Below are positions 15,925 through 61,183 of a stretch of DNA of 64,000 nt, piece by piece. Origin of the DNA: a virus; the IMG/VR virus record IMGVR_UViG_3300047510_002627, positions 56,752 to 120,751 of that record. One strand, written 5' to 3'. The notes below the pieces were generated by a model. That model was not told the DNA's origin, did not search any database, and saw only the letters and a program-made list of their open reading frames with translations. A program made the translations under genes and the position numbers. Position 1 is the first letter of the stretch. Each line of letters begins with the position of its first letter.

Positions 15925-16362
15925 ATGACTAATCTCGCACGATTAAATACGTCGGATCTTCCTACCCTTATGGATAGGATTCATCGATATGGTATTGGTT
16001 TTGATGATTACTTTTTTGATAGATTCTGGAATCTTCACGAAACGACTTCAAATTATCCCCCATATAACTTAGTTACGTTAAGCAATGTCGAATCACGTTT
16101 GGAAATCGCACTCGCAGGATTTAAGAAAAAGGAAGTTTTTGTCTACACGCAAGACGGAAAACTCTTTGTGGAAGGGCAAAAAGAAGACAAGGAAACGGAG
16201 TCCACCTACGTACACAAAGGATTGGCGCAACGATCCTTCACTAGATCTTGGACTCTCGCAGATGACACAGAAGTTAGATCAGTTGAATTTGAGGATGGAT
16301 TGTTGAGCGTTGTTCTTGGTAAAATTGTTCCAGAATCTCATAAACGAAAAGATTATCTATAA
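15925..16362 (+). CDS. hsp20: Hsp20 small heat-shock protein
   Basis: 145 residues from ATG 15925, chosen because of the AAGGAG 8 bases upstream. Alpha-crystallin-domain chaperone, common in T4-like cyanophages, thought to help folding or scaffold assembly. Residues about 50-140 form the alpha-crystallin domain, with SRLEIALAGFKKKEVFVYTQDGKLFVEGQ, a QRSFTRSWTL strand and the closing FEDGLLSVVLGKIVPES, close to the classic GVL motif. A TATAAATA site overlaps its stop codon. Confidence 0.93.
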   Translation: MTNLARLNTSDLPTLMDRIHRYGIGFDDYFFDRFWNLHETTSNYPPYNLVTLSNVESRLEIALAGFKKKEVFVYTQDGKLFVEGQKEDKETESTYVHKGLAQRSFTRSWTLADDTEVRSVEFEDGLLSVVLGKIVPESHKRKDYL

Positions 16363-16365
16363 ATA
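16358..16365 (+). promoter_or_regulatory. T4-type late promoter TATAAATA
   Basis: Exact TATAAATA overlapping the hsp20 stop, 120 bp before the next gene and directly before a terminator, so it may give only a short or read-through transcript. Confidence 0.45.
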
Positions 16366-24204: not shown

Positions 24205-24798
24205 ATGAAAAGTTTTTCAAATTTCCAAACAGAAGCAAATAAATCACTTGCAGGATTTCATGCAAAAAGATTGGGATTGAAGTATGATAAAAAAACGGGC
24301 GGATATGTTGGAAGACATACTGGAGAATTTGTAGCAAAGTCGGTTAATGGTAATTTAAAATTTTATAATCAAAATCAACAAATTGGCAAAAAGGATCCAA
24401 AACAAATTAGAGGTAATCGTTTTCCTAATGCTGTTGCTTCAGATTATAAACCAAATACACCATTAAGAACCGAAGAACAAATAAAGGAACTCCGAGAACA
24501 ATATATTGCAAAAGAAATATTTTTAGAAGGCGATTGGATACAAAACCCAATGAATGGATTAGTTGGCAAAATCATTCGTAGAGGTACTAATTATCTGATT
24601 TGTGTAACTGAAGAAAATCAAATGTTTAAACCTTGGATACATGATGTTGTTGAATGGACAGAAATATCTGGTGTTCCGGCAGATCAAAGATTAATTGGAA
24701 CTGATTCACATAGAAATTATGTTGCTAAAATGGCGGGTGCTGAAGGAATAAGGAACTTCATAAATAAGTATAAGGCAAAGAGAGTAAATAAGAAATGA
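24205..24798 (+). CDS. Candidate internal head protein with capsid-targeting-like N-terminus (1)
   Basis: 197 residues, basic. N-terminus MKSFSNFQTEA aligns residue for residue with the T4 internal-protein targeting peptide MKTYQEFIAEA, whose cleavage falls after E10. The consensus P3 residue (Leu/Ile) is Gln here, so the site is imperfect. The rest has YDKKTGGYVGRHTGEFVAKS and a tail rich in Lys. The next gene has the same N-terminus, with a perfect site. Whether it is packaged and ejected is inference. Overlaps the next start by 4 bp. Confidence 0.5.
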   Translation: MKSFSNFQTEANKSLAGFHAKRLGLKYDKKTGGYVGRHTGEFVAKSVNGNLKFYNQNQQIGKKDPKQIRGNRFPNAVASDYKPNTPLRTEEQIKELREQYIAKEIFLEGDWIQNPMNGLVGKIIRRGTNYLICVTEENQMFKPWIHDVVEWTEISGVPADQRLIGTDSHRNYVAKMAGAEGIRNFINKYKAKRVNKK

Positions 24799-25112
24799 AA
24801 TCATATCATCAATTTCTTTCTGAAGCAGTCAATATTGCTGGAGATTTTAATGGAAATCTCTATATCAACAGTTCTGAACCCGAAACGAGATCTGTTGGGG
24901 AAGATTATGTTGCTGATTTTGTTTGGGAAGGAAGCATTTATAGATTGGAGTTGGTATCAAATGGAATGCCATCTAAATTAGATTTGGCAGAAAGATTGCA
25001 GACCGAATATCCTGGAGCAATTGTTCATCAGATTTATCCAGCAATTCAAAAAACAGATGTAAACATTTCAAGCACCAAGAGATATCACCCAGGAAAATTG
25101 GAGTGGTTATAA
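24795..25112 (+). CDS. Candidate internal head protein with capsid-targeting-like N-terminus (2)
   Basis: 105 residues. N-terminus MKSYHQFLSEA matches the T4 targeting peptide MKTYQEFIAEA in 5 of 11 positions plus conservative changes, and L8-S9-E10/A11 fits the T4 gp21 protease consensus (Leu/Ile-x-Glu). The mature part would be about 95 residues, mixed alpha/beta, with DYVADFVWEGSIYRLELVSNG. No other family recognised. Stop is 3 bp before the next gene. Confidence 0.55.
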   Translation: MKSYHQFLSEAVNIAGDFNGNLYINSSEPETRSVGEDYVADFVWEGSIYRLELVSNGMPSKLDLAERLQTEYPGAIVHQIYPAIQKTDVNISSTKRYHPGKLEWL

Positions 25113-25849: not shown

Positions 25850-25857
25850 TATAAATA
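25850..25857 (+). promoter_or_regulatory. T4-type late promoter TATAAATA
   Basis: Exact TATAAATA, 28 bp before the ATG of the 937-residue protein, the expected distance. Confidence 0.8.
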
Positions 25858-25885: not shown

Positions 25886-28699
25886 ATGTCATCAAATATT
25901 GCAAAAAATCTTTATGAGGCTTATCTCACTGAGATGGAACCTCAATTAGGTAAAAAACAAGAAGGTGGTGAAGGTGGTAGTGCGGCAGCATCACCTGATG
26001 AAGCATCTGCAAAAAGAATCAGGCAAGCTGTATACGATATTAGATATCGTGCGAGAAGAGAAGATATTGATGTAAGTCAAGCATATTCTCAGTATATGGC
26101 AAATACATCCATGGCAGCAAATGAAAAGTCTGCTGTAAGAGACAAACTTGGTCTTGGTCCTGGTGGACAAGCAGAAGGTTTTGAAATGGATGAAGACGCA
26201 AAAGCAGGAGAACACTATCTTCGTGTTACTCCACAACGAGGAACTGGAGAAAAGGAATACGTAAGAAAATTTGATCCTCAAAACCCATCTCATCGTGCTA
26301 AGAGACATTCTTTGGAAAAAAGAGGAATCAAAGCAACTGTAACTAAGCATGGAAATCCTTACGATCAGGATCACTCAGGTGCTGGCGAAAAGTATGAGAA
26401 GAAGTATGGTCCAGCAACTGGAAAGAATACTGTAGGTGATAAGGATAAGGATGGTACTGTAGAACCAGACGGTCATGAGTATGCTGGCGTAAAGGATAAT
26501 GCCATTAAAAAGGCGACAGCAAAGAAAGGAGTTAAAAAGGAATCATATTCTTCTTGGAGAGAAGAGATTCGTGAAGTAGTTGAGAAGGCAAATGCCATCA
26601 AAGAAAAGGATCAGCAAATTAAAGAAAAGGCAATAAAAAATAATATAGTTGTAAATCCAGATGTTCCCATTAAAGAATTTGCACATAATCTTGGTGGAGA
26701 ACTTGTAGAATCCGTTGATCTCGGTGAAGATTTTGAAGAACTGATTGCCGATTATGCAACTGAATATTTCTTCCTTGAAGGACTTAATGAAAACGGAATT
26801 GATATTCTTATTGAAGATCTCGGTGTCGATGAATTTGTTGATTATGTTTTTGATCTTTTTGAAGAGTTTGAAGAAGAAATTCTCACCGAAGCAAGAAGAA
26901 GCGGACGTATTGAACCAGTTACTAAAACTGGGAAAGATGTTGGATCACTGAAGGGTGGTGCAAAAACAGCAGCAATTAAGCGTCTTCGTGCTGAAAAGCA
27001 AAGTAGAAGAGATACAGAAGCAGCAGCATCTGCTGAAAGACCATCTAAATTGACTTCATCTCTCAAGAGTCAGTCTGAAAGAGCAAAGGTTGCTAAAGGA
27101 TTGAAGAAGGCATCAACTGAAAAGAAAGTTGAAAAGGCAAAAGAAACACAAGCACCCGCTGCAAATAAATCCTCTGAGGGGACTAAGAAAGAAGTCAAGA
27201 AGGGAATTCTTGGTGCAATCAAAGATAGAGCAGCAAGAGATACTGAACTTCTGAAGCAGTCATGGAAAACTGCTAGGGATGCTGGTAAATCGGCAGAGAA
27301 AAGAGTAGCAAGTGCTGCTGGAACTGCTGCAGGAGTTGCTGTCGGTGCCGCTAAAGCAGTTCATCGTGCTGGACAAGAAGCGGGCAAGAGTGAGGCGGGA
27401 CAAAAGGTTAAGGCAACCCTTGCCAAGGCAGGTAAAGCTGCTGTTGCTGGTGCTTCTGCTGGTGCTAGAAGTGGAGAAAATAATACTGCCGCAGGTAGAG
27501 CAGGTCGTGCTGTCGGAACTTTCGTCAAAAAAATGAAAGAAGATTATGAACTTTGGGTCGAAGAATTGATTGATGAGGGGTATGATGTTTGGGAATACTC
27601 TGAAGATTATCTGATTGAAACGTATCTCCCAGAAGATCTCGATGAGGGACTTGGAAGTGCTTTAAAAGGAATTCTTTCCCCTAAACCATCCGAAAGACAA
27701 AAACTTGCCAAAGAAAGATTAGCAAAACATGCTGAGGCAATGAGAACTGGGGGAACTTCTCCTTATTCACCTCAAAGAAAAACATCATCCACTCCTATTA
27801 AAAAACCAAATACTACAGAAAGAGATCCCTGGTCTGGTGATCCAGAAACTGATAAAGCATGGGCAAAGGGTAAATCGGCATCTAAACCTTATGCATATAA
27901 GGGAACTCATGAAGAATTTGAAGAGTGGTTGGAAGGAATTCTTGAAGAAGGAATTGAATTGGATGAAAATATGCTCTTCTTACTTTATGAATCAACACTA
28001 ACTAATGAAATGATGATGATCGCAGAATCATCTCATGTCAAGAAAGATGGTGTTGATGATAATGGAAATACTTCATGCTGGAAGGGGTATGTAAAAAAAG
28101 GTACTAAAATTAAAGGTGGTAAGGAAGTTAATAACTGCGTAAAGGCAGAAGATACTAAACTTGATAATATTATTGCTCAAATTAGAGGATCTCAACAAGT
28201 TGATGAGGCAGCACCAGCATTGGCTGCTGCGGGTAGATTGGCAATGAGAGCATTGACTTCAAAAACAGCACAAAAGGCTGCCAAGAAGGTTGGAAAGGCA
28301 GCAGTTAAAGGTGCTGCCGCTGGTGCTGCAGAAAGAGCGGGTGAAGTTGCTTATGATACTACAAGGAACATTGGGAAAAAAAACACTGAATGTGAAGAAT
28401 ACGTCAGTGAATTAAATCGTTATGAAAAGGAAACTGGCACATCTTCTGGTTCTCTTAATATGAGGAAAGGCAAACCAACTCAAAAAGGTGGAGATTCTGA
28501 TCCAGTAATGAGATTAGTTAGACAATCCATGCGTAAGCAATCGGGTAAACCTGTTGGTCAGCAGAAAAAGCAAAAAGGCAAGAAACCACCAGCAGCGGGT
28601 GAATACGGATCTGAAAGAAGATCTCCAGCACAAATAGTTGCAAATCGTCGTGCTGCTGCTCAAAGATCACAAGACTCAATGTCATCAAGATTTGACTAA
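25886..28699 (+). CDS. 937-residue modular head-type protein with H1-like basic segments and protease sites
   Basis: Begins SSNIAKNLYEAYLTEMEPQL. Acidic helical modules rich in Asp/Glu (about 270-333, 545-600, 665-715) alternate with Lys/Ala-rich segments (about 336-545 and 775-850) that look like histone H1. Sites matching the T4 prohead protease rule (Leu/Ile-x-Glu or near it) occur at L333-T-E335/A336 and V772-D-E774/A775, exactly at acidic-to-basic borders. A Cys-containing block GNTSCWKGYVKKGTKIKGGKEVNNC sits near 725. This composition suggests a scaffold or internal head polyprotein. No known family is certain. Confidence 0.6.
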   Translation: MSSNIAKNLYEAYLTEMEPQLGKKQEGGEGGSAAASPDEASAKRIRQAVYDIRYRARREDIDVSQAYSQYMANTSMAANEKSAVRDKLGLGPGGQAEGFEMDEDAKAGEHYLRVTPQRGTGEKEYVRKFDPQNPSHRAKRHSLEKRGIKATVTKHGNPYDQDHSGAGEKYEKKYGPATGKNTVGDKDKDGTVEPDGHEYAGVKDNAIKKATAKKGVKKESYSSWREEIREVVEKANAIKEKDQQIKEKAIKNNIVVNPDVPIKEFAHNLGGELVESVDLGEDFEELIADYATEYFFLEGLNENGIDILIEDLGVDEFVDYVFDLFEEFEEEILTEARRSGRIEPVTKTGKDVGSLKGGAKTAAIKRLRAEKQSRRDTEAAASAERPSKLTSSLKSQSERAKVAKGLKKASTEKKVEKAKETQAPAANKSSEGTKKEVKKGILGAIKDRAARDTELLKQSWKTARDAGKSAEKRVASAAGTAAGVAVGAAKAVHRAGQEAGKSEAGQKVKATLAKAGKAAVAGASAGARSGENNTAAGRAGRAVGTFVKKMKEDYELWVEELIDEGYDVWEYSEDYLIETYLPEDLDEGLGSALKGILSPKPSERQKLAKERLAKHAEAMRTGGTSPYSPQRKTSSTPIKKPNTTERDPWSGDPETDKAWAKGKSASKPYAYKGTHEEFEEWLEGILEEGIELDENMLFLLYESTLTNEMMMIAESSHVKKDGVDDNGNTSCWKGYVKKGTKIKGGKEVNNCVKAEDTKLDNIIAQIRGSQQVDEAAPALAAAGRLAMRALTSKTAQKAAKKVGKAAVKGAAAGAAERAGEVAYDTTRNIGKKNTECEEYVSELNRYEKETGTSSGSLNMRKGKPTQKGGDSDPVMRLVRQSMRKQSGKPVGQQKKQKGKKPPAAGEYGSERRSPAQIVANRRAAAQRSQDSMSSRFD

Positions 28700-28716
28700 T
28701 TTTAAAGATACTTTTT

Positions 28717-28724
28717 CATAAATA
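28717..28724 (+). promoter_or_regulatory. Late-type promoter CATAAATA
   Basis: One mismatch to the late consensus, 40 bp before the small membrane gene. Confidence 0.6.
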
Positions 28725-28764
28725 ATCATAGTCGTAATGATTTTTTAAAAATAGGAGGTAAATC

Positions 28765-28956
28765 ATGACTCTTGCAGCAATCTGGGCTTGGATTGCAGCT
28801 AATGAAGCTGCTTTAGCAACAGTCCTGTTAATTGTTTCCGAACTCATGGGAGCAAGCACAAGATTTAAGTCTAATGGAATTGTTTCTTTTGTTCTTATTC
28901 AACTTAAGGAACTTGCTAAGAAGAAAGGTGCAGTTGATCCAACACCCAACGAGTGA
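28765..28956 (+). CDS. Small single-span membrane protein
   Basis: 63 residues preceded by AGGAGGT. One hydrophobic helix (about 5-28, AAIWAWIAANEAALATVLLIVSEL), then a second amphipathic stretch and a basic tail ending KKGAVDPTPNE. Its size and topology are holin-like, but the assignment is only a possibility. Flanked by late promoters, so it is a late gene. Confidence 0.6.
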   Translation: MTLAAIWAWIAANEAALATVLLIVSELMGASTRFKSNGIVSFVLIQLKELAKKKGAVDPTPNE

Positions 28957-28963
28957 TTGGGCA

Positions 28964-28971
28964 TATAAATA
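28964..28971 (+). promoter_or_regulatory. T4-type late promoter TATAAATA
   Basis: Exact match, directly before a terminator hairpin; a second exact copy follows at 29018. Confidence 0.55.
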
Positions 28972-28985
28972 AAATACATTTTGAT

Positions 28986-29018
28986 GGGGAGATATAAAAA
29001 TTAAACTCCCCTTTTTTT
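28986..29018 (+). terminator. Terminator between late genes
   Basis: GGGGAG (28986-28991) with CTCCCC (29006-29011), then T7 that runs into the next late promoter. Confidence 0.85.
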
Positions 29019-29025
29019 ATAAATA
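29018..29025 (+). promoter_or_regulatory. T4-type late promoter TATAAATA
   Basis: Exact match beginning in the T-run of the terminator, 34 bp before the 261-residue virion gene. Confidence 0.8.
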
Positions 29026-29059
29026 TCTTTATAGATCCTAAAATTACGGAAGAAGAAAC

Positions 29060-29845
29060 ATGGCACTCTGGGGTAATAATGATAATGTAACGTCAGCAGG
29101 TATTGTAACTTGCGACTATACGACTACCGATTCTAATGGTAATGTTATCGTAAATGGTTGGTTAACTAATTTTGGTGCGGTTGGGTCAGCAAAAACTGGA
29201 GATGTAATTCGATTTGGTAGAGGAGATGCTACATACATTGGAGATGCTGTAATTGTTTCTATTGCGGGAACCCAGCAACTTTCAATTGCATCCACTACAG
29301 GACTCAGTGGTGCTGCTATTGCTGGTGCTAATTTTACAATTAGTGAATTACCAAAATACACTATATTAGATTCTACTTATAGTAATGCACTGGATACATC
29401 AACTACCCTTAAGGATTTTGGTGTAACTGGAACTGCAACAACTAATTCTCCTGTTGGTTACAGTACTGTTTATGTAGTAACTACAGGTAAAGATATTGTT
29501 ATTGGTGATACTTTATTGAATGATGGAAATGATATCGCAATCATTACTATCAACGCTACAAATGTTGTACTTGGATCAACAATCTCTGCTGGCATTTCTA
29601 CAGGAGACTCTCTTTCATTCAAGAGATATACTGGGGGATATGAGAAAAATGTTTACGGTGTTGCTGGAGCTGGAGTCACAGCATCACATGCAACCAAGTA
29701 TGAATTGTCTCATGCCGGATGGGTTGGAGTAACTACATATGTAGATTGCCATGGAGAATATAGAGTTAAGACTGAAGTACTGGTAGCAATGTCTGGAATT
29801 ACAACAGGCAACGCCCCACTTTACGATGCAAATCCACTTGTATAA
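29060..29845 (+). CDS. Virion structural protein, cyanophage MALWGN type
   Basis: 261 residues, almost all beta/Gly/Thr/Ser, low in Lys. N-terminus MALWGNNDNVTSAGIVTCDY and C-terminus SHAGWVGVTTYVDCHGEYRVKTEVLVAMSGITTGNAP match a pattern I recognise among cyanophage structural proteins. Behind an exact late promoter. Exact place in the particle unknown. Confidence 0.7.
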   Translation: MALWGNNDNVTSAGIVTCDYTTTDSNGNVIVNGWLTNFGAVGSAKTGDVIRFGRGDATYIGDAVIVSIAGTQQLSIASTTGLSGAAIAGANFTISELPKYTILDSTYSNALDTSTTLKDFGVTGTATTNSPVGYSTVYVVTTGKDIVIGDTLLNDGNDIAIITINATNVVLGSTISAGISTGDSLSFKRYTGGYEKNVYGVAGAGVTASHATKYELSHAGWVGVTTYVDCHGEYRVKTEVLVAMSGITTGNAPLYDANPLV

Positions 29846-29855
29846 TAATTGACAC

Positions 29856-30239
29856 ATGTTATTTGATGAATTGAATGAGGACAATTTTCTTTTATTCGCA
29901 ATAAAAAATTATAGAAATCCTCAAGCGGTTACTGAAGAGGATTTCTATAAGGATTTAAATCATTTTAAATATATTAAACGCCTTTTAAAAAGGTATAAAA
30001 AGGATGGCGAATTGAGATGCAATCTTCTCATTATTCATTTTATAATTCTTTATAATATTTTTGGTGATGCTGCAACACCGATGTTATTCTACAAGGTTGA
30101 AGATGAATTGTGGTCTTGTGTAAAAACATTTATAGTATTTTTAAATAAATTGCCACCAGAACCTAAATGCCACCTACATAATATCCCATTTGATGTTGAA
30201 TGCCTTAAACAATTAGGAGAATTATCAAAAGAAAAATGA
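29856..30239 (+). CDS. Small conserved phage protein, helical
   Basis: 127 residues: MLFDELNEDNFLLFAIKNYRNPQ..EEDFYKDLNHFKYIKRLLKRY..NLLIIHFIILYNIFGDAATPMLFYKVEDELW. The pattern is one I recall from many tailed phages of marine bacteria as a hypothetical protein near structural genes. Its stop overlaps the next start by 4 bp. Confidence 0.65.
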   Translation: MLFDELNEDNFLLFAIKNYRNPQAVTEEDFYKDLNHFKYIKRLLKRYKKDGELRCNLLIIHFIILYNIFGDAATPMLFYKVEDELWSCVKTFIVFLNKLPPEPKCHLHNIPFDVECLKQLGELSKEK

Positions 30240-30439
30240 ATATTGATAAACTCATTTCCATAATAAGAGAAAATATGGTTGTTGGTGGTGGTGGATTTAC
30301 AGGATCGTCACCTGCAGAAGGACCAACTGCTGGATTTGATCCTTTGTTAGGGTTCCGAAACAAAAAAAAAGGAAATGTTGATTTTCGTAGAGTTCCTAAG
30401 GATTATAAGAGTTGGGTAAAATCTTTAAAAAATAAATAA
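30236..30439 (+). CDS. 67-residue Gly-rich/basic protein
   Basis: GGGGFTGSSPAEGPTAGFDPLLGFRNKKKGNVDFRRVPKDY; flexible Gly/Pro centre then a basic end. Overlaps the previous gene by 4 bp. Unknown function, likely a virion-associated small protein by position. Confidence 0.6.
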   Translation: MNIDKLISIIRENMVVGGGGFTGSSPAEGPTAGFDPLLGFRNKKKGNVDFRRVPKDYKSWVKSLKNK

Positions 30440-30488
30440 TTAATAACAAAAGGATGAATGCGTGACGTATAAATTAGTGGTATGTAAA

Positions 30489-30923
30489 ATGTCACCATTC
30501 CAATTAAGAAGATCAGATCTCTCAAAATTAGATGTTTTAGAAGCAAAATTTAACATTTATGAAGATTTATCTAGACAGATGATGGATAAGTTGGAAGTCG
30601 CTGTGGATAAGATATCTGAAGCAAACAATAAGATTGCTACGATTCTTAGTAAGCATGACGAAAGAATTGATCAAACAATTAAGAATGATGAAAACTTTGC
30701 CAAACAACTTGATGAATTGAAGGAAGAGAATAAAGAAGATCATAAGGCAGTTGTAGATAGAATACAAAAATTGGAACTCAAAATAGAAGACCTTGTTAAA
30801 TTTCGTTGGATAATTGCTGGTGCAGTAGTTATTATAAGTTTTGTATTTTCTCAATCTGGTATGGTTGTTGATATTTTGACACCTGATACTCAACCAAATT
30901 ATAGAATAGAAACAAAGAAGTAA
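30489..30923 (+). CDS. Coiled-coil protein with C-terminal membrane anchor
   Basis: 144 residues from ATG 30489; a GTG at 30462 is an alternative. Heptads at about 15-105 (KLEVAVDKISEANNKIATIL.., KLELKIEDLVKF), then a single membrane helix (WIIAGAVVIISFVFS) and a short tail. The layout resembles phage holin-associated or spanin-like anchored coiled coils, but no family is certain. Confidence 0.6.
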   Translation: MSPFQLRRSDLSKLDVLEAKFNIYEDLSRQMMDKLEVAVDKISEANNKIATILSKHDERIDQTIKNDENFAKQLDELKEENKEDHKAVVDRIQKLELKIEDLVKFRWIIAGAVVIISFVFSQSGMVVDILTPDTQPNYRIETKK

Positions 30924-30929
30924 TAAATA
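30922..30929 (+). promoter_or_regulatory. Possible late promoter AATAAATA
   Basis: One mismatch; overlaps the stop of the coiled-coil gene and precedes a 44-residue gene by 20 bp. Confidence 0.35.
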
Positions 30930-30949
30930 TTACAAGTTATGGCATTAAG

Positions 30950-31084
30950 ATGCCAATGAAAAAAATTAAAGATAGTAAAAAAATAAATCATTATAATTTA
31001 TTGAAATTAACGAATACCATTCTTAAATGGACTTCTGAAATAACTGCAGAATGCTGTAAGAAGGCAGTTGACAGGGAGTCCTGA
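30950..31084 (+). CDS. 44-residue basic protein
   Basis: MPMKKIKDSKKINHYNL then a helix LTNTILKWTSEITAECCKKAV. The consensus promoter of the primase gene lies in its last codons. Unknown function. Confidence 0.5.
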   Translation: MPMKKIKDSKKINHYNLLKLTNTILKWTSEITAECCKKAVDRES

Positions 31085-31096
31085 ATACTGTAGGAT
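31068..31096 (+). promoter_or_regulatory. Sigma70-type promoter for gp61-nrdA-nrdB
   Basis: TTGACA (31068-31073), 17-bp spacer, TAGGAT (31091-31096), 22 bp before the primase ATG. A short dyad GTAGG/CCTAC covers the -10 box and the start point. Confidence 0.85.
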
Positions 31097-31118
31097 GTGA
31101 CCCTACCCGAGGTTTGTC

Positions 31119-32087
31119 ATGGATCACGTTGATGCAAAATACATCATGCTCTTAAGTTCTCGCTTAGAAAAATTTAAGAAAATAAAAGTAGATACATATA
31201 ATTTCCGTTGTCCAATATGTGGAGACTCTAAAAAAAATAGGACAAAGACTAGAGGTTATCTATACGGCATTAAAAATAATACTAATTATAAGTGCCACAA
31301 TTGTGGTGTAAGTATGTCTTTTAATAATTTTTTGAAAGACTTAGATGTAAATCTTCACAAAGAATATGTTTTTGAAAAATATAAGAAAGGAGTAACTGGT
31401 AAAAATTTCCAAACTGAAGATCCAAAGTTTGAATTTAAGAAACCAGTTTTTGATAAAAAAATAGACTTGCCAAGAGCAGTAGAAAATGAAAAGTCTAAAA
31501 ATTATCTTGAAAGTAGAAATTTAAACCCTTATAAATTTTATTATACCCCCAATTTTAAAAAGTGGACTAATTCTCTCCAACAAACTTTTGATAATACAAA
31601 TTATGATGAAGAGAGAATTGTAATACCGCTTTTTTATAAACGAAACTTAATTGGATTTCAGGGGAGAGCTATCGGTCCAAGTCAGGTAAAATATATTACC
31701 ATTATGCTGGACGAAGATGCACCAAAAATTTACGGACTCGATGAAGTAAATTCGGATGAAACAATTTACATTACTGAAGGGCCTTTCGACTCAACCTTTA
31801 TTAAAAACTCTATTGCTATGTGTGGGGCCGATATTGATATTAGCTCGTTTGGTTGGGGCAGTGTTGTTTACATTTATGATAACGAACCACGCAATCGAGA
31901 AATCGTCAACAGAATCTCCAAAACAATCGATAGAGGTGACAAAGTAGTGATATGGGGATCTGATGTTGGTGAAAAGGATCTTAATGATATGATTCTTGCT
32001 GGACGAGACGTTCAAAATATGGTAGAATGTAGTACCTACCAAGGACTAGAAGCAAAACTTAAGTTTATTAACTGGAAAAAAGTATGA
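31119..32087 (+). CDS. gp61: gp61 DNA primase
   Basis: 322 residues (T4 gp61 342). Makes RNA primers with gp41. The N-terminal zinc finger has C31-x2-C34 (CPICGD) and C59-x2-C62 (CHNC). A TOPRIM-like part follows with YITEGPFDSTFI (Glu) and VVYIYDNEPRN (Asp). Overlaps nrdA by 4 bp, linking primer synthesis and dNTP supply. Confidence 0.93.
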   Translation: MDHVDAKYIMLLSSRLEKFKKIKVDTYNFRCPICGDSKKNRTKTRGYLYGIKNNTNYKCHNCGVSMSFNNFLKDLDVNLHKEYVFEKYKKGVTGKNFQTEDPKFEFKKPVFDKKIDLPRAVENEKSKNYLESRNLNPYKFYYTPNFKKWTNSLQQTFDNTNYDEERIVIPLFYKRNLIGFQGRAIGPSQVKYITIMLDEDAPKIYGLDEVNSDETIYITEGPFDSTFIKNSIAMCGADIDISSFGWGSVVYIYDNEPRNREIVNRISKTIDRGDKVVIWGSDVGEKDLNDMILAGRDVQNMVECSTYQGLEAKLKFINWKKV

Positions 32088-34381
32088 GTAACGGAACGAG
32101 TGTTGTCAAGAGAAATGGACGAATTGAATCTCTTGATTTGGATAAAATGCATCTTATGGTAGATGAAGCAACCAAGAATCTTGCTGGAGTATCTGCAAGT
32201 CAAGTTGAAATGAAATCTGGCATTCAATTTTATGATGGAATCACCACACAAGAAATTCAAGAAATTTTGATTCGTAGTGCTAGTGATCTAATTGATTTGG
32301 ATCATCCAAATTACCAATATGTTGCTGCTAGACTTCTTTTGTTTTCTATTCGTAAACAATTATATGGAAAGATGAGAGAACTTCCTCATCTTGAAGAACA
32401 TATTTTTAATTGTGCTTCTAAGAATCTTTATGATTCTGAAATTTTTGATAAGTATTCAAAAGAAGAAATTGAAAAGGCAAATAGTTTCATTGATCATGAT
32501 CGTGACTATTTGTTTACTTATGCTGGTCTTCGTCAGGTAGTAGATAAATATTTGGTTCAGGATAGAAGCACTGGTGGAGTCTATGAAACTCCACAATATA
32601 TGTACATCATGGTTGCTTTGACTATGTTTGCTAATTATCCTAAGGATAAACGAATGTCATATGTTAAGAGGTATTATGACGCGATCTCAAAGCACAAAAT
32701 CAACATTCCTACACCAATCATGGCAGGTGTTAGAACCCCACTTCGCCAATTTGCAAGTTGCGTTCTTGTTGATGTTGATGACACCCTTGACAGCATTTTC
32801 ACTTCTGACATGGCAATTGGTCGCTATGTTGCTCAAAGAGCAGGAATTGGTATCAACGCAGGTCGAATCAGGGGCATCAACAGTAAGATCCGAGGTGGAG
32901 AAGTTCAACACACTGGTGTTGTCCCTTTCCTCAAAAAGTTTGAAGCAACTGTCCGATGCTGCACTCAAAATGGCATCCGTGGCGGATCAGCAACTGTCCA
33001 CTTTCCAATCTGGCACCAAGAAATAGAAGACATTCTGGTGCTTAAAAATAATAAAGGTACTGAAGATAATCGTGTTCGTAAACTTGACTATTCTATCCAA
33101 ATTACAAAAATCTTTTACCAAAGGTTTATTGAGGGGGGTGACATCACACTTTTCTCCCCACACGATGTACCTGGATTATATGATTCTTTTGGGACGGATA
33201 GATTTGATGATTTATACGTTTCGTATGAAAAAGATCCCTCTATTAAAAAGAAAACTATTTCTGCTCAAGAATTAATTTTTTCTCTTCTTAAGGAACGTGC
33301 AGAAACGGGTCGAATTTATATTATGAATTTGGATCATTGTAATTCTCATAGTTCCTTTAAGGATAAGATTGAGATGAGTAATCTCTGCCAAGAAATCACT
33401 CTTCCAACTTTCCCTCTGCAACACATTGATGAAGAACATGGTGAAATTGCACTTTGTATTCTCTCCGCAATTAATGTTGGCAAAGTAAAGTCGGATGAGG
33501 AACTTGAAGAACTTTGTGATCTTTCTGTTCGTGGATTAGAAGAATTGATTGACTATCAAGACTATCCAGTTAAAGCAGCAGAGATCGCTACAAAGGCACG
33601 GAGATCGCTTGGAGTGGGGTTCATTGGACTTGCTCACTATCTTGCTAAACTTGGATTCAATTATGATTCTCAGGAGGCATGGGACGCAGTTCACGGTCTT
33701 TCAGAATCTTTCCAATATTATCTTCTGAAGGCATCTAATCAAATTGCAAAAGAAAAGGGTCATTGTGAATACTTTGGACGTACTAAGTATTCTGATGGTA
33801 TTCTCCCAATCGACACCTATAAAAAAGATGTAGACGAAATTTCTTCTATTAAATTACAACATGATTGGGAATCTCTTAGGGTATCTATCTTGGAACACGG
33901 TCTTAGGCACTCAACATTGTCCGCACAGATGCCATCGGAGAGCAGTTCCGTTGTGTCAAATGCAACCAATGGAATCGAACCGCCTAGAGATTACTTGTCC
34001 ATTAAAAAATCGAAGAAAGGTCCACTTGTTCAAATTGTTCCACAATATTCGTCCCTTAAAAACCATTATACTCTTCTTTGGGATATGGAGTCTAACCGTG
34101 GTTATATTAATGTTGTTGCTGTGATGCAAAAATTCTTTGATCAGGCAATTAGTGGTAATTGGAGTTATAATCCAAGAAATTATGCGAACAACGAAATTCC
34201 AATTTCCGTGATGGCACAAGACTTTTTAAGTACTTATAAATTTGGATGGAAGACTAGTTACTATCAAAATACTTATGATATGAAATCTGATGAAATTGAG
34301 CATAAAGAAGATACTTTGAGTTCACTTTTAGATGAAATTATGGCCTCCGAAGAAGAGGATTGTGAGAGTTGCAAAATTTAA
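32084..34381 (+). CDS. nrdA: Ribonucleotide reductase class I large subunit
   Basis: 765 residues (T4 NrdA 754). Reduces NDPs to dNDPs with NrdB. An N-terminal ATP-cone (VVKRNGRIESLDLDKMHLMV) precedes the barrel. Active-site region includes ASCVLVDVDD with the cysteine, NLCQEITLP (Asn-x-Cys..Glu) and QMPSESSSVVSNATNG. C-terminus ends EEEDCESCKI, with the redox Cys-x2-Cys pair. nrdB starts 12 bp inside in another frame or just after. Confidence 0.96.
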   Translation: MSNGTSVVKRNGRIESLDLDKMHLMVDEATKNLAGVSASQVEMKSGIQFYDGITTQEIQEILIRSASDLIDLDHPNYQYVAARLLLFSIRKQLYGKMRELPHLEEHIFNCASKNLYDSEIFDKYSKEEIEKANSFIDHDRDYLFTYAGLRQVVDKYLVQDRSTGGVYETPQYMYIMVALTMFANYPKDKRMSYVKRYYDAISKHKINIPTPIMAGVRTPLRQFASCVLVDVDDTLDSIFTSDMAIGRYVAQRAGIGINAGRIRGINSKIRGGEVQHTGVVPFLKKFEATVRCCTQNGIRGGSATVHFPIWHQEIEDILVLKNNKGTEDNRVRKLDYSIQITKIFYQRFIEGGDITLFSPHDVPGLYDSFGTDRFDDLYVSYEKDPSIKKKTISAQELIFSLLKERAETGRIYIMNLDHCNSHSSFKDKIEMSNLCQEITLPTFPLQHIDEEHGEIALCILSAINVGKVKSDEELEELCDLSVRGLEELIDYQDYPVKAAEIATKARRSLGVGFIGLAHYLAKLGFNYDSQEAWDAVHGLSESFQYYLLKASNQIAKEKGHCEYFGRTKYSDGILPIDTYKKDVDEISSIKLQHDWESLRVSILEHGLRHSTLSAQMPSESSSVVSNATNGIEPPRDYLSIKKSKKGPLVQIVPQYSSLKNHYTLLWDMESNRGYINVVAVMQKFFDQAISGNWSYNPRNYANNEIPISVMAQDFLSTYKFGWKTSYYQNTYDMKSDEIEHKEDTLSSLLDEIMASEEEDCESCKI

Positions 34382-34404
34382 GTAGTAAACCCAACGATAA
34401 GCAA

Positions 34405-35586
34405 ATGCAATACAATTTTAAAGTTTCCGAAGAATCTTCAACCAGTATCCAAGGAATGACTGTTTTTAATACAAACGTTGTTGATACCAAAAAGCAGCAC
34501 ATGTTCTTTGGTCAACCACTTGGGATACAAAGATATGATACATTTAAATATCCAGTATTTGATAAACTGACAACTCAACAACTTGGGTTTTATTGGAGGC
34601 CTGAAGAAGTTTCATTGCAAAAAGACCGTGGAGATTATCAAACGCTTCGCCCAGAACAAAAGCATATCTATACAAGCAACCTCAAGTATCAGATTATGCT
34701 TGACTCCGTACAAGGCCGTGGTCCTGGGATGGCTTTTATGCCATACTGTTCACTACCTGAACTTGAATCTTGTATGAACATTTGGCAAACTATGGAAATG
34801 ATTCATAGTCGCTCCTACACATACATCATCAAGAATGTATATTCAGATCCTTCTGAAGTCTTGGACAAAATTGTAACCGATGACAAGATTCTTGAGAGGG
34901 CAAAAAGTGTTACTGAATCTTATGATGATTTTATTAATTCTGCACAACACTATGGAAATTCAAATGATTGGAAACACGCTCTTGAAGGAGTTCATTATGC
35001 AAAACTTTCTTTGAATGATGTTAAACGAAAACTTTATCGAGCAGTTGCAAACGTCAATATCCTTGAAGGTATTCGTTTTTATGTTTCTTTTGCTTGCTCC
35101 TTTGCTTTTGGTGAACTGAAACTTATGGAAGGATCTGCTAAGATTATTTCCTTGATTGCAAGAGACGAAAATCAACATCTTGCAATCACTCAAAATATTT
35201 TGAATAAGTGGAGAGAAGGTGATGATCCAGAAATGAAACAAATTGCTAAAGAAGAAGAAGAATGGGTTTACACTATGTTTAAACGTGCTGTAGATGAAGA
35301 AAAGAAATGGGCAGATTATTTGTTTAAAGATGGTAGTATGATTGGACTAAATGATAAACTACTTCAACAATATGTTGAATGGATTGCAAATCGTAGAATT
35401 AAGGCAATAGGATTAAAACCAATCTATGATATTGCCGCAAATAATAATCCACTTCCTTGGACTCAACATTGGATTTCATCTAAAGGACTTCAGGTTGCAC
35501 CACAAGAAACTGAAGTTGAATCATATGTAATTGGAGGAATTAAGCAGGATGTTGGTAAAGATACTTTTAGTGGATTTAAACTTTAA
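34405..35586 (+). CDS. nrdB: Ribonucleotide reductase class I small subunit
   Basis: 393 residues from ATG 34405 (T4 NrdB 388); a TTG at 34369 inside nrdA would add 12 residues. Ferritin-like diiron protein providing the tyrosyl radical. Ligand motifs are LPELESCMNIWQTMEMIHSRSY (Glu, Glu, His) and IARDENQHLAITQ (Glu, His), with FACSFAFGELKLMEGSAKI before them. Followed by a terminator 7 bp after its stop. Confidence 0.95.
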   Translation: MQYNFKVSEESSTSIQGMTVFNTNVVDTKKQHMFFGQPLGIQRYDTFKYPVFDKLTTQQLGFYWRPEEVSLQKDRGDYQTLRPEQKHIYTSNLKYQIMLDSVQGRGPGMAFMPYCSLPELESCMNIWQTMEMIHSRSYTYIIKNVYSDPSEVLDKIVTDDKILERAKSVTESYDDFINSAQHYGNSNDWKHALEGVHYAKLSLNDVKRKLYRAVANVNILEGIRFYVSFACSFAFGELKLMEGSAKIISLIARDENQHLAITQNILNKWREGDDPEMKQIAKEEEEWVYTMFKRAVDEEKKWADYLFKDGSMIGLNDKLLQQYVEWIANRRIKAIGLKPIYDIAANNNPLPWTQHWISSKGLQVAPQETEVESYVIGGIKQDVGKDTFSGFKL

Positions 35587-35591
35587 TTTTT

Positions 35592-35615
35592 AGAGGGGTA
35601 ACACCCTCTTTTTTT
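35592..35615 (+). terminator. Terminator after nrdB
   Basis: AGAGGG (35592-35597) with CCCTCT (35604-35609), then T7 leading into TATAAATA. Confidence 0.85.
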
Positions 35616-35622
35616 ATAAATA
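35615..35622 (+). promoter_or_regulatory. T4-type late promoter TATAAATA
   Basis: Exact match in the terminator's T-run, 24 bp before the 471-residue head-type gene. Confidence 0.8.
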
Positions 35623-35646
35623 TTTGTATTCTTAGAAACTAGTGTC

Positions 35647-37062
35647 ATGAATCCATTATCTTTATATGAATCTTACGCAGCAGTATATAACGAAGAATTG
35701 CTGTATGTCTCCGAAGACTACTCTTCTATCGATGAATTTTCTGATGAAGAACTCATTGCAATTGTAGAAGAGGTTATTTCTGAAGAAGGATTTGATATTG
35801 ATGAATCACTTGAGTTTCTTGATGAAGCAAAAGTTACTTATGGACATGATACTGAAGATCCAGATGCACAGAAAAAGGCAGAAAGAGTAGATAGAATTAA
35901 ATCTGCTGCATCTAAAGCTGGATCGATGGCTAAAGATGTTGCAAAAAAAGTATATAAAACTGCAAAAGAAAAGGGTCCTGGACTCCTTGATCGTGCCAAA
36001 AAGGCAGTAAAGGGTGCTCTAAAAACTGGAAGATCTCTTCTTGCAAAGGGACTTCGCAAGGGAGCAGAACTTGCAGGTAAGGCGGCTTCCAAGGTCGAAC
36101 CGAAGGAAACGCCAAAAGCAGAACCCAAAGCAGAACCCAAAGCAGAACCAAAGGCATCAGCACCTGAGAGCAAAGGACCTAAGTATAGAAATGTTGGCGT
36201 AGGTAGAAAGGAAAGAGTTGGTGGTAAGGTTGAATCAGAACCTAAATCTGTTTCAGAACCAAATAAGGAAAGAATTGAAAGGGCAAGAGAAAAATTAAGA
36301 AAAGCAGCTAAAGGATCTCCTTCAAGGGGAGTTAGATTTGCTACTCCTGGGGGAAAAGTAGCACCTACAGTAATGCGTAGCGGTAAAGATTCTCCATCTG
36401 AAAGAACTAAAGCAGCATCAAGATTTGCTAAAAAGGCAGGAATTAGTGATAGTTTTGAGTATCTCTTAGGTGTAATTTTTGATGATATGATTAGTGAGGG
36501 ATATGTTAGTGATTATGAAACTGCTTCTTATGTCCTTGAATCACTTACAGAAGATGATTTTGACTATGTATTTGAAACATACTCTGTGTTATTGAATGAA
36601 GCAACTGCAATGGCAAAGCGTGGACTTGATGAACCTGCCATCCGTCAACAGATTGCTAAGAGCACTGGTGGTGGGCAGGCAGCAGATCGTGCAACTGCTC
36701 TGGCAGACAAGCAGACCTATGGACAGAGTGGTGTGGATCCTAAGGCAAGACAGCAACTTGCTGCCAAGCAGAGAGGTGACTTCCGCAACACCACATCCTC
36801 CAATCCAGGATTGCATGGTTACGCAAATAAGGTAACAACCGCTGCAGATAAAGCAAAACAAGCAGCAAGAGGGTTACAGAGGGGAGTTCTTACTCCTGCA
36901 GAGAGACAAAGACTTAACATGGGCGATGAGTCCTTTGATACTTATGATTTGGTTCTTGAATTCCTTTACGTTGAAGGATATGTAGAAACAATTGAAGAGG
37001 CAGAACAAATGATGGTCAATCTGACACAAGAGCAGATTGATGAAATTATTGCGAATAACTGA
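35647..37062 (+). CDS. 471-residue modular head-type protein, relative of the 937-residue one
   Basis: Begins NPLSLYESYAAVYNEEL, like NLYEAYLTEM of the larger protein. An acidic module ends at L58-D-E60/A61. Then comes a Lys/Ala-rich H1-like segment (about 78-155), a PKAE repeat of four copies near 158-174, more basic sequence, and an acidic module SFEYLLGVIFDDMISEGYVSD at about 265 ending at L316-N-E318/A319. A second basic part and a final acidic module EFLYVEGYVETIEEAEQMM follow. Both L-x-E/A sites fit T4 prohead protease cleavage. Behind an exact late promoter. Confidence 0.6.
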   Translation: MNPLSLYESYAAVYNEELLYVSEDYSSIDEFSDEELIAIVEEVISEEGFDIDESLEFLDEAKVTYGHDTEDPDAQKKAERVDRIKSAASKAGSMAKDVAKKVYKTAKEKGPGLLDRAKKAVKGALKTGRSLLAKGLRKGAELAGKAASKVEPKETPKAEPKAEPKAEPKASAPESKGPKYRNVGVGRKERVGGKVESEPKSVSEPNKERIERAREKLRKAAKGSPSRGVRFATPGGKVAPTVMRSGKDSPSERTKAASRFAKKAGISDSFEYLLGVIFDDMISEGYVSDYETASYVLESLTEDDFDYVFETYSVLLNEATAMAKRGLDEPAIRQQIAKSTGGGQAADRATALADKQTYGQSGVDPKARQQLAAKQRGDFRNTTSSNPGLHGYANKVTTAADKAKQAARGLQRGVLTPAERQRLNMGDESFDTYDLVLEFLYVEGYVETIEEAEQMMVNLTQEQIDEIIANN

Positions 37063-43187: not shown

Positions 43188-43384
43188 CCTACGAAGAGTT
43201 CTTAGATATGCCCACCACATTTTTTGATGATATGGTGAAGGTAATTGCTTTAAAGCATAAGTATCGATTAGAATTCACCGAAGAGGAAAAGAAAATTAAT
43301 CAACATTTGATGAAATATGATGAAGAATTAAAAATTAATGCATTAAGATACAAATTTGAAAGATGTTGGGAGAAAGATAAATGA
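43184..43384 (+). CDS. 66-residue charged helical protein
   Basis: MTYEEFLDMPTTFFDDMVKVI, then Lys/Glu-rich helices. Overlaps neighbours by 4 bp each. No family recognised. Confidence 0.5.
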   Translation: MTYEEFLDMPTTFFDDMVKVIALKHKYRLEFTEEEKKINQHLMKYDEELKINALRYKFERCWEKDK

Positions 43385-43575
43385 AAAGTCTTATTCTCTT
43401 GTCATGTTTTTTACCTTTGATTATCATCTACATAATTATGAAATTATCTGTTTGGATAGCAAGTATAGAAACAGAAACCGAGTATGTCCGAAAAGAATCC
43501 AAACGACCCCATGGACCATACGTGGCAGATGCATATGCAGACGTTGATAAGGAGGAAGAAAAATTTGGAGATTAA
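43381..43575 (+). CDS. 64-residue membrane protein
   Basis: N-terminal membrane span (about 2-27), then a polar tail with RPHGPYVADAYADVDKEEEKF. Preferred over the overlapping frame from 43356 because of its 4-bp overlap with the previous gene and its regular membrane topology. Confidence 0.55.
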   Translation: MKSLILLSCFLPLIIIYIIMKLSVWIASIETETEYVRKESKRPHGPYVADAYADVDKEEEKFGD

Positions 43576-43720
43576 AGAAACTTTAGAATCTGCAATTTCC
43601 AAGTGGTACTTTGATCACGGAATTGCAGAACCTAATTGGAAAATGCAAAAAGATCCACAGTGGTGGATTGATTATTTAAATGAAATTGAAAATGGGGAAC
43701 AAGAAAATGAGGATTGGTAA
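43565..43720 (+). CDS. 51-residue protein, TTG start
   Basis: TTG 43565, 9 bases after AAGGAGG; the frame extends up to 43484 but has no better site. EIKETLESAISKWYFDHGIAEPNWKM..PQWWIDYLNEIENG, Trp-rich and acidic. Unknown function. Confidence 0.5.
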   Translation: MEIKETLESAISKWYFDHGIAEPNWKMQKDPQWWIDYLNEIENGEQENEDW

Positions 43721-43743
43721 TTTTTCACTTTTGGGAGAAATTT

Positions 43744-43908
43744 ATGAAATTTGAAAATTTAACAAATTACGAAAGAGAATTACTCATTGATGCAGTATGG
43801 ATCAGACAAAGATGCTTTATTGCAGGAGATAAAAAGTTTAGAGAATACGGAGAAATTCTTGATGAACTTAAAAAAAATTACGACTACACACCTGGGAGAT
43901 TGAGGTAG
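43744..43908 (+). CDS. 54-residue protein
   Basis: ATG 43744 behind GGGAG. KFENLTNYERELLIDAVWIRQRCFIAGDKKF.., a helical protein with a Cys. Unknown; 4 bp before gnd. Confidence 0.5.
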   Translation: MKFENLTNYERELLIDAVWIRQRCFIAGDKKFREYGEILDELKKNYDYTPGRLR

Positions 43909-43912
43909 AATT

Positions 43913-44944
43913 ATGAAAGTAGGAATGATTGGACTAGGACGAATGGGAGAAGGAATGTCCCGTCGTATGCTAAAGGAAGGTATTGAAGTTTGGGGATACC
44001 GAAGAAATTACGAAAAAGCAAATGAAGCATTTGAAAAAGGATATGTTTCTGGTATTTGTACAACTATCGAAAATCTTGTCAAAGTAGTTAAAAACGATAA
44101 AGGACTTGAGCAACCAGGAATTTTCCAGATGGTTGTGCCAGCAGAAAATGTAGAGGAGACGATCAGTGAGTTACTACGATATTGTGGTGAAGGAGATATT
44201 ATTATTGATCATGGCAATAGCAATTTTAAAGACAGTCGGAAAAGAGCAGAACGTCTGGCAAAGTTGGGTATCCAATATATTGATTGTGGCACTTCTGGGG
44301 GTGTTTACGGTCTGGATCGTGGATACTGTCTTATGGTTGGGGGCGGAAATACTGCAGTCTCCACTTGTTCGCGCATTTTTAATGCCCTTGCCCCAGGAGT
44401 CAACTCTGCCCCCAGGACTGAGCATGACTCAGACATAACTTCCGCAGAGAGGGGTTGGTTGCATTGTGGTGGTCCTGGTGCTGGGCATTTTGTGAAGATG
44501 GTTCATAACGGCATTGAGTATGGTATGATGCAGGCATATGCAGAAGGATTCAACATTCTCAAGAATGCCAACAATGGAGCACAGTATGTCAGAGAAGGAG
44601 ACGCAGAGGTTGCCCCTATGGCAGACCCAGAATCCTACTGCTATGATATTGACGTTGCTGAGGTTGCTGAGTTATGGCGTCGTGGTAGCGTTGTTGGTTC
44701 TTGGTTACTTGATCTTACTGCTTCTGTGCTACGCAGCAGCCCACAGCTTTCTAACTTCTCTGGAGGGGTATCCGACAGTGGTGAAGGTAGGTGGACGGTT
44801 AATGCTGCTGTGGATCTGGGGGTTCCCGCTCCTGTCATCACAACTGCTCTTTATGAAAGATTTAATTCACGCAATCTTGGTACTTTCGCTGCCAAGATTT
44901 TAAACGGCATGAGGTACATGTTTGGTGGACATCATGTCAGATAA
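43913..44944 (+). CDS. gnd: 6-phosphogluconate dehydrogenase (decarboxylating), short type
   Basis: 343 residues, the short class rather than the 470-residue dimeric type. Pentose-phosphate-pathway enzyme making NADPH and ribulose 5-phosphate, an auxiliary metabolic gene in cyanophages that fits nucleotide synthesis with NrdA/NrdB. NADP site GLGRMGEGMSRRML at 7-20, IIDHGNSNFKDS, CGTSGGVYGLDRGYCLMVGG, and the catalytic K195 in GGPGAGHFVKMVHNGIEYGMMQ. Ends with FGGHHVR. A late-type GATAAATA overlaps its stop. Confidence 0.93.
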   Translation: MKVGMIGLGRMGEGMSRRMLKEGIEVWGYRRNYEKANEAFEKGYVSGICTTIENLVKVVKNDKGLEQPGIFQMVVPAENVEETISELLRYCGEGDIIIDHGNSNFKDSRKRAERLAKLGIQYIDCGTSGGVYGLDRGYCLMVGGGNTAVSTCSRIFNALAPGVNSAPRTEHDSDITSAERGWLHCGGPGAGHFVKMVHNGIEYGMMQAYAEGFNILKNANNGAQYVREGDAEVAPMADPESYCYDIDVAEVAELWRRGSVVGSWLLDLTASVLRSSPQLSNFSGGVSDSGEGRWTVNAAVDLGVPAPVITTALYERFNSRNLGTFAAKILNGMRYMFGGHHVR

Positions 44945-59704: not shown

Positions 59705-61123
59705 ATGATTAACTTTGTTGTACCTAGTATTGGTAGGGAAACTTTAAAATTTACTTTGGAATCATTAGTTAATCAAACAGACCCTGATTGGGAATGTTGG
59801 GTTGGATTTGATGGGTTATCTGAAGAAGAAGTGAAAAGCGAAATTCTAATAAAAGATGAAAGGATTCATTACATTTATCTTAAAGATAAATTGGGAAATG
59901 CTGGACATCATGGAAATGCTGGATTAGTCAGAAATAGCATCATATCTCAGATTGATAATGATAGAAAATGGATAGGATTTGTAGATGATGACGACACTTT
60001 AAATATAGATTACGTTAAAACTACAAAACGAATTGAAGAAGAGGCTCCAGATTTTGATGCATGTGTCTATAGAATGCAATATGATAGGCATGGAATGAAG
60101 ATTATTCCTCCTCCAGGAATGAAACAAATTCAACAAAATTTTGTTGGTATTTCTTTTTTTGTAAAGAAAAAGTTTATTGACGATGCTAAAATTGAATTTG
60201 TGAATGATAATGCTGAAGACTTTAAATATTTGAGTTCTATCGGTGAAAATGGTGGAAAAATAGCAATTACTGAATTTGTAATGTATAATGTGAACGGACA
60301 TGAATATGCAAATGAGGAAGATGAAGATATGCATTTGATGGATAAAAATAAATCAGTTTATAAATTGAAGGATTTTGGTCCGATATATTGCATCAATTTG
60401 GATGGTCAACCAAATAGGTGGGACTATATGGAAAGGCAATTTAAGCATTGGGAATTAACTGATTATACTCGTATTACTGCTTATGATGGTAGAGAAGATG
60501 ATCTAAGTGATATTCTTGTTGGAAGGTATCCCGAAATGATGACTTCTGGAGAAATAGGTTGTGTAACATCTCATCTAAAGGCAATTAAGCATTGGTTGGA
60601 TACTTCAGATTCTCCATATGCAATCATTATGGAAGATGATTGCAACATAGACATGGCAAAGTTTTGGGATTTTACTTGGAGGGATTTTATTGCTAGGGCA
60701 CCTTATGCTTGGGATGTAATTCAATTGGCAATTATTTCTACAGGTGAAATTCATATTCCGATTCATACGAGATTTGTCAACGATTTCTCTACAGCATGTT
60801 ATGTAATTACAAGGCACCATGCTGAAAAATTAGTTAAGTATCATGTACGTGGTCATAAGTATAAACTTGACAATGGAGTTAAACCTAGACCAGTTGCTGA
60901 TGATTTGATTTATAATTCTGGTTGTACTTATGCATGTCCAATCTTCTTGTATAAGATTCAATTGGGATCTTCCATCCATCCTGAACATGTGGACATTTTC
61001 CATAGACAATCGCATAATGGACTCTTAAACTTTTGGTCTCAAAGGGGGTCACAGATGTCTCTTAGTGATATAACTAAATTCGACCCCTATCTTGGTAGAA
61101 TTTCTGGAACTTCCCAACAGTAA
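59705..61123 (+). CDS. GT2-GT25 fusion glycosyltransferase
   Basis: 472 residues. First 215: INFVVPSIGRETLKFTLESL, KWIGFVDDDDTLNIDYV, VYRMQYDRHGMKIIPP, parallel to the upstream gene. Last 250: GPIYCINLDGQPNRWDYMERQF, GEIGCVTSHLKAIKHWL, YAIIMEDDCNIDM, the GT25 motifs. Fusion of two transferase types seen separately at 57713 and 59081. Last gene of the operon; no terminator is obvious between it and the porin promoter. Confidence 0.85.
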   Translation: MINFVVPSIGRETLKFTLESLVNQTDPDWECWVGFDGLSEEEVKSEILIKDERIHYIYLKDKLGNAGHHGNAGLVRNSIISQIDNDRKWIGFVDDDDTLNIDYVKTTKRIEEEAPDFDACVYRMQYDRHGMKIIPPPGMKQIQQNFVGISFFVKKKFIDDAKIEFVNDNAEDFKYLSSIGENGGKIAITEFVMYNVNGHEYANEEDEDMHLMDKNKSVYKLKDFGPIYCINLDGQPNRWDYMERQFKHWELTDYTRITAYDGREDDLSDILVGRYPEMMTSGEIGCVTSHLKAIKHWLDTSDSPYAIIMEDDCNIDMAKFWDFTWRDFIARAPYAWDVIQLAIISTGEIHIPIHTRFVNDFSTACYVITRHHAEKLVKYHVRGHKYKLDNGVKPRPVADDLIYNSGCTYACPIFLYKIQLGSSIHPEHVDIFHRQSHNGLLNFWSQRGSQMSLSDITKFDPYLGRISGTSQQ

Positions 61124-61146
61124 AAGTGGTGATTTCCGCACCCCCC

Positions 61147-61175
61147 TTGACAACCTGAAAAAAATCCTGTATCAT
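61147..61175 (+). promoter_or_regulatory. Sigma70-type promoter of the porin gene
   Basis: TTGACA (61147-61152), 17-bp spacer, TATCAT (61170-61175). Confidence 0.9.
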
Positions 61176-61180: not shown

Positions 61181-61183
61181 CAT

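Follow-up and report, generated by a model that had tools for sequence, protein, structure and literature searches.

Two mosaic proteins of a T4-like cyanophage are predicted multi-site substrates of the prohead protease

Anatomy and late promoters of proteins A and B

The DNA analysed here, a window of 64,000 nucleotides, corresponds to bases 56752-120751 of the 120,751-base IMG/VR record IMGVR_UViG_3300047510_002627, the source of which is a T4-like cyanophage. We focus on two proteins encoded in this window, A and B, that resemble mosaic polyproteins and carry multiple tripeptides of the kind recognised by the T4 prohead protease, gp21. Their features are listed below; coordinates are those of the window, a slash marks a predicted cut, and hydrophobic-x-Glu denotes a hydrophobic residue at P3 followed by any residue and Glu at P1.

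25850..25857, plus strand: T4-type late promoter sequence TATAAATA, 28 bp 5' of the A ATG; same octamer and place in the relative L011
25886..28699, plus strand: protein A, 937 aa, pI 9.0, mosaic and polyprotein-like
25886..25918, plus strand: A 1-11, leader MSSNIAKNLYE/A, capsid-targeting-like (compare the LxEAYxxVY leader class of relatives)
26702..26710, plus strand: A site L273-V-E/S, left border of acidic module 1
26711..26890, plus strand: A 276-335, acidic helical module 1, net -22 (helices from a low-confidence model)
26882..26890, plus strand: A site L333-T-E/A, kept in L011 and ACG-2014f
26891..27541, plus strand: A 336-552, basic K/A-rich stretch (336-564 net +25)
27542..27646, plus strand: A 553-587, acidic module 2, with sites I562-D-E/G, L576-I-E/T and L585-D-E/G
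27908..28027, plus strand: A 675-714, acidic module 3, with sites L686-E-E/G, L700-Y-E/S and I712-A-E/S
28199..28207, plus strand: A site V772-D-E/A, outside the strict T4 rule
28208..28696, plus strand: A 775-937, basic C-terminal part, net +19, pI 10.4
28403..28411, plus strand: A junction V840-S-E/L preceding the [RL][TN]R[YF]xKETG cassette (hydrophobic-x-Glu in 6/6 independent contexts)
35592..35615, plus strand: terminator-like hairpin and T run 3' of nrdB, by direct sequence reading
35615..35622, plus strand: T4-type late promoter sequence TATAAATA, 24 bp 5' of the B ATG
35647..37062, plus strand: protein B, 471 aa, pI 5.5, mosaic and polyprotein-like
35647..35670, plus strand: B 1-8, N-terminal leader MNPLSLYE/S
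35671..35826, plus strand: B 9-60, acidic module 1, net -19, with sites I51-D-E/S and L58-D-E/A
35827..36450, plus strand: B 61-268, basic K/A/P-rich stretch (61-284 net +25)
36451..36600, plus strand: B 269-318, acidic three-helix module 2 (model pLDDT ~70-74), with I282-S-E/G, ending at L316-N-E/A
36601..36831, plus strand: B 319-395, swappable cassette ATAMAKRG... (P1 is Glu in each of its 20 independent upstream contexts)
36928..37059, plus strand: B 428-471, C-terminal acidic module (FDxVLExLxxEGYxETxEEAExMMxN...)

The initial annotation described A and B as alternating acidic helical modules with K/A-rich basic stretches, and this description holds, as do its coordinates and lengths. The four tripeptides that it quoted (L333-T-E/A and V772-D-E/A in A, L58-D-E/A and L316-N-E/A in B) all lie at the residues given; while three of them obey the T4 rule, V772-D-E is not a strict L/I-x-E. 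The proposal that the sites fall at charge borders fares similarly: net charge over the 25 residues before and after the site flips at A335 (-11/+5), B60 (-10/0) and B318 (-7/+2), and the border at V772-D-E is weak (-2/+4). The leaders LYE/A (A 9-11) and LYE/S (B 6-8) and the L273-V-E/S border had been overlooked, together with further sites: beyond those quoted, cuts are predicted after E11, E275, E564, E578, E587, E688, E702 and E714 of A and after E8, E53, E284 and E451 of B, with some of the [LI]xE sites located within acidic modules. Cutting at [LI]xE/[AGST] and VDE/A is predicted to yield acidic A 276-335 and B 9-60, the basic pieces A 336-564, A 775-937 and B 61-284 (pI 10.1-10.4), the small acidic pieces A 565-587 and 689-714, and acidic B 285-318 (net -9), followed by the rest of B.

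The basic stretches had been likened to histone H1. Their K/A/P-rich composition bears this out, without any Pfam match to H1; true kinship was rejected, as neither protein has a Pfam hit for the globular winged-helix domain. Searched against PHROGs and Pfam, A and B matched only PHROGs without a head-protein name, gave no accepted Pfam hit and contained no recognised functional domain. The AlphaFold models (mean pLDDT 48 for A and 40 for B) are too poor for a fold search: only residues 41-90 of A are moderately well predicted (pLDDT ~80-85), and the best-predicted part of B is part of its second acidic module.

Both proteins had been called late, and the octamers 28 and 24 bp 5' of the two ATGs, which the initial annotation had missed, agree with this. 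The copy before B directly follows the terminator-like hairpin, and TATAAATA also precedes the B-slot genes located after nrdB in S-SRM01, S-SKS1 and S-T4, as well as the B relative in locus L013. As the octamer is neither rarer nor commoner in the window than expected (6 copies vs 6.8 by chance), the promoter evidence lies in where it is placed: no more than 100 bp separates five of the six from an ORF start located 3' of them. From this placement, A and B are predicted to be expressed late. Further octamers at 29018-29025 and 16358-16365, 34 and 27 bp before the ORF starts at 29060 and 16393, suggest other late genes.

Candidate cleavage sites and cassette junctions

To calibrate the protease rule we used putative sites in gp23 and gp21, read from sequence. 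In 64 distinct N-terminal regions of the major capsid protein the expected propeptide site is L-x-E with A, T, S, G or Q as the next residue; in the gp23 of this phage it reads LLTE/TPTV, its L-T-E being identical to A 333-335. In the C-terminal tail of gp21, L-R-E is conserved in most of 67 distinct sequences, with V-S-E/Q in this phage. Literature searches on cyanophage capsid targeting or gp21 sites returned nothing specific to cyanophages.

As judged by whole-protein shuffles, [LI]xE[AGS] is in excess in both A (8 vs 2.5 expected, p=0.003) and B (6 vs 1.4, p=0.004), the narrow motif [LI]xE/A being not significant in A alone (2 vs 1.1 expected). We then ranked 98 ORFs of the record by their excess of [LI]xE/[AGST] over shuffles made within 20-residue blocks. 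A comes first (9 vs 3.1), gp22 second (8 vs 1.9) and B third (6 vs 1.5), and motifs of permuted letter order do not single out these three proteins; summed over the genome, the motif occurs about as often as expected (92 vs 83). T4 gp22 is a known type of multi-cut protease substrate (PMC9026906).

The sites are largely retained in relatives. In L011, 78% identical, 10/10 hydrophobic-x-Glu positions of A are kept as such; for B, 5/6 are kept in L013 (67% identity over aligned columns), L6-Y-E being lost. Between ATAMAKRGL and NMGE, the L013 relative of B (L013:895-1983) is without the greater part of the ATAMAKRG cassette, which looks either deleted or never inserted.

T4-like cyanophages have a large set of mosaic proteins made of common cassettes; A and B are members of it and have segments in common with many proteins otherwise unrelated to them. 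Searches with whole A or B returned few hits, because homology runs cassette by cassette; cassette queries did retrieve relatives. As compared by sequence, the modular plan is not unique to this phage but common to many unannotated relatives. Where the cassettes ATAMAK, AMSSYD, GVRDLDPE and AVYGG begin, P1 is Glu in 51/51 independent upstream contexts (defined as <40% identity), and P3 is hydrophobic in all of them (V20, I11, L9, M8, A1, F1, Y1), against a background of 9% for Glu and 18% for LIVMF. The fifth cassette, [RL][TN]R[YF]xKETG, which follows V840-S-E in A, adds six of six contexts, including the virion protein gp280 of S-SCSM1, bringing the five cassettes together to 57/57. With the chosen junctions masked, [LIVM]xE[AG] still occurs 391 times in 118 mosaic proteins vs 150 expected, permuted motifs being ~1.2-fold enriched.

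Module ends behave in the same way. A 39-residue acidic module (DxFDxVLEYLxxEGYAETxEEAExIMANMSEEWxxxIxE) forms the protein end in 11 copies; in 35/36 non-terminal copies it closes with hydrophobic-x-Glu, after which unrelated sequences follow, and 26 of these ends have A, G, S or T next (17% in random windows). Many short relatives consist of a leader, hydrophobic-x-Glu and a cassette, such as MDIDNLKGLMEAYQQVYASQEVDE/AVYGG, a form that resembles the capsid targeting sequences of T4 internal proteins. A homology-boundary test found hydrophobic-x-Glu enriched 1-6 residues inside left boundaries; since acidic linkers recur, the reversed E-x-hydrophobic is enriched there too, and we do not lean on this test. 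A third mosaic protein, of 464 aa, is encoded between gp16 and gp17 of the same genome, outside the window (L357:3320-4714; G000 ~43320-44714); it has a junction ISE/AKKSEMP and one segment in common with the mosaic set.

Genomic setting, virions of relatives and known systems

A and B are separate genes, with genes for a tail-fibre-like protein, a DUF7207 protein, primase, nrdA and nrdB between them. Upstream of A lie a small protein with a T4-like leader (24795-25112, MKSYHQFLSE/A) and a cytidyltransferase-like protein, upstream of B nrdB; the strand opposite A and B holds only ORFs without support, for example 25991-26374 and 35838-36173. A similar order of mazG, cytidyltransferase, A-slot gene, primase, nrdA, nrdB and, often, a B-slot gene is found in S-SCSM1, S-SM2, S-SRM01, S-SKS1, P-SSM2, Bellamy and S-T4. 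The window does not include the head genes, which lie at ~52.9-56.4 kb of the record.

In S-SCSM1 the A-slot protein gp280, gp089, gp282, the NMNAT gp281 and gp279 are virion proteins by mass spectrometry of CsCl-purified particles (PMC9602691); we took these statements from that paper and from GenBank notes, not from spectra. The 520-aa gp280 (net +41) has in common with A an SxWRxxxREV...KEKxxKNxIxxNP block and the KETG cassette, and gp089 and B have the acidic module in common. The cytidyltransferase cluster T4-GC 190 is also present in S-SM1 virions (PMC3037559). If the S-SCSM1 proteins are cut, the predicted semi-tryptic peptides are APTNAVGSDGFQGG... of gp23, AAESGASVQAK (A11) of gp281 and AYAAVYSNTVEETYTVTAADK (A12) of gp089.

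Three observations concern other ORFs of the window. The cytidyltransferase/NMNAT-like protein (24205-24798) has only 197 aa here vs ~350-440 aa in relatives: it is without the GRFNPPxxGH-type core segment and keeps a leader-like start, MKSFSNFQTE/A, and the C-terminal part. A 67-aa protein (30236-30439) contains a segment like the major capsid protein just after its cleavage region (GPTAGFDPLLGF vs GPTAGFDPVLIS), and S-SCSM1 and S-WAM1 have comparable small genes annotated as 'major head protein'. ORFs 61074-62738 (minus strand, 554 aa) and 61245-62726 (plus strand, 493 aa) overlap almost fully, the latter being without a PHROG hit.

Among known systems, the T4 internal proteins IPI-IPIII and Alt come close: they have in common with A and B a leader ending in L/I-x-E, late expression and a basic mature part (both predicted for A and B) and presence in virions (here of a homolog). 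A T4 internal protein is made of a single short propeptide and a single mature part, whereas A and B have several predicted sites, acidic modules and swappable cassettes. We recognised no sequence homology between A or B and the T4 internal proteins, nor similarity to any described internal-protein family; as the T4 proteins are themselves poorly conserved (PMC9026906), we claim that A and B work like a T4 internal protein, not that they belong with it. With T4 gp22 and gp67 they have in common many L/I-x-E sites and an expected cut into several fragments; however, gp22, which is strongly acidic here, lies in the head gene cluster, whereas A and B have strongly basic parts and lie near primase and nrdAB. 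In the jumbo phage SPN3US, propeptides of head and ejection proteins are cut at several A-x-E sites by the gp245 protease (PMC10052503). These are likewise cut more than once by a prohead protease, as predicted for A and B, but in SPN3US the sites cover N-terminal propeptides that reach 254 aa, while those of A and B are spread along the chain at cassette borders. Finally, fragments are exchanged between phages in other mosaic phage proteins (PMC10684548), though in A and B the exchange borders often coincide with a protease-like tripeptide.

Interpretation and alternatives

We consider it likely, on the sequence evidence above, that A and B are late, multi-cassette substrates of gp21 that are cut into pieces inside the prohead. 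The chain would be carried to the core of the prohead by its N-terminal leader and acidic helical modules. Cleavage by gp21 behind the Glu of hydrophobic-x-Glu junctions would then part these modules from the cassettes, basic ones and others, of which at least some would remain in the head as internal proteins. That the basic pieces neutralise DNA charge, as the initial annotation supposed, is the most speculative element. Its prohead-protease reading gains from comparative sequence evidence in the form of multiple, conserved sites and of hydrophobic-x-Glu at cassette borders, but the term 'self-cleaving' finds no support: the expected enzyme is gp21, whose gene is at 52957 of the parent record (L357:12900-13544).

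Several points weigh against the reading of A and B as gp21 substrates. Cleavage is what we infer and the sites are predictions. Three of the five cassettes were chosen after a Glu had been noticed where they begin, and the cassettes also served to retrieve the loci; AVYGG was found automatically. The recurrent starts TKNPKK and LDPVG, also found automatically, lack an invariant Glu: not every recurrent block begins at a site. P3 at cassette junctions is often V or M, vs Leu in the aligned gp23 sites, and V/M-x-E, lying beyond the strict rule, may escape cutting. L/I-x-E-G inside acidic modules, for example L-E-E-G, could be a helix cap. Lastly, the structure models are of poor quality.

A less probable alternative is that A and B are cut as proposed, but that the basic and other cassettes are ejection proteins entering the host with the DNA, as membrane-active or host-takeover factors, rather than neutralising DNA. 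Some basic stretches start like cationic amphipathic helices (IDE/GIGSLIGKVAKGAIGLAG in S-SRM01), T4 internal proteins and Alt are ejected (PMC9026906), and the cassettes vary widely among phages, as payloads would. However, A and B have no recognised functional domain, and the evidence here does not separate ejection from retention. More doubtful still is that A and B are uncut mosaic virion proteins in which hydrophobic-(D/E)-E-A serves as a structural linker or helix N-cap at cassette starts. Mosaicism of phage proteins is known (PMC10684548), Asp, a good helix cap, occupies P2 in 28/51 contexts, and V-D-E is commoner than L-x-E at junctions; yet P2 can also be K, V, M, Y, G or L, many sites end rather than start a helix-like acidic module, and the enrichment in A and B, as in gp22, is of the strict L/I rule, not of VDE alone.

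The site-rich pattern common to A, B and gp22 would also fit a role as mere core or scaffold filler, similarly to T4 gp22 and gp67, which are cut to many fragments, most of them leaving the head (PMC9026906): A and B would be chopped by gp21 and mostly expelled before packaging. We regard this as improbable, given the detection of the A-slot homolog and gp089 in finished S-SCSM1 virions and the large basic parts and variable cassette content, which are unlike a generic scaffold. It is very hard to credit that acidic, Leu-rich helices simply produced the tripeptides by chance: although the narrow [LI]xE/A motif is not significant in A, shuffles preserving local composition still place A and B in the genome's top three, and chance leaves junction conservation across unrelated contexts unexplained.

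The site pattern of A and B is real and conserved, and we read it as a variant of known T4 head-processing logic, not as a new kind of system. More tentatively, and with confidence falling just short of even, we propose that T4-like cyanophages have a general 'polyprotein cargo' system in which exchangeable cassettes, joined at protease sites and targeted by leaders and acidic modules, would be released in the head, the cargo being changed by recombination at cleavage sites. The mosaicism of A- and B-type proteins would then be explained, since recombining at a cleavage site does not disrupt any of the released pieces. Many T4-like cyanophage virion proteins are without an assigned role; cleavage of A, B and their relatives at hydrophobic-x-Glu, if it takes place, would give a set of unexplained head proteins a common logic of targeting module, cleavage site and cargo cassette, by which phages could equip their heads with diverse small proteins.

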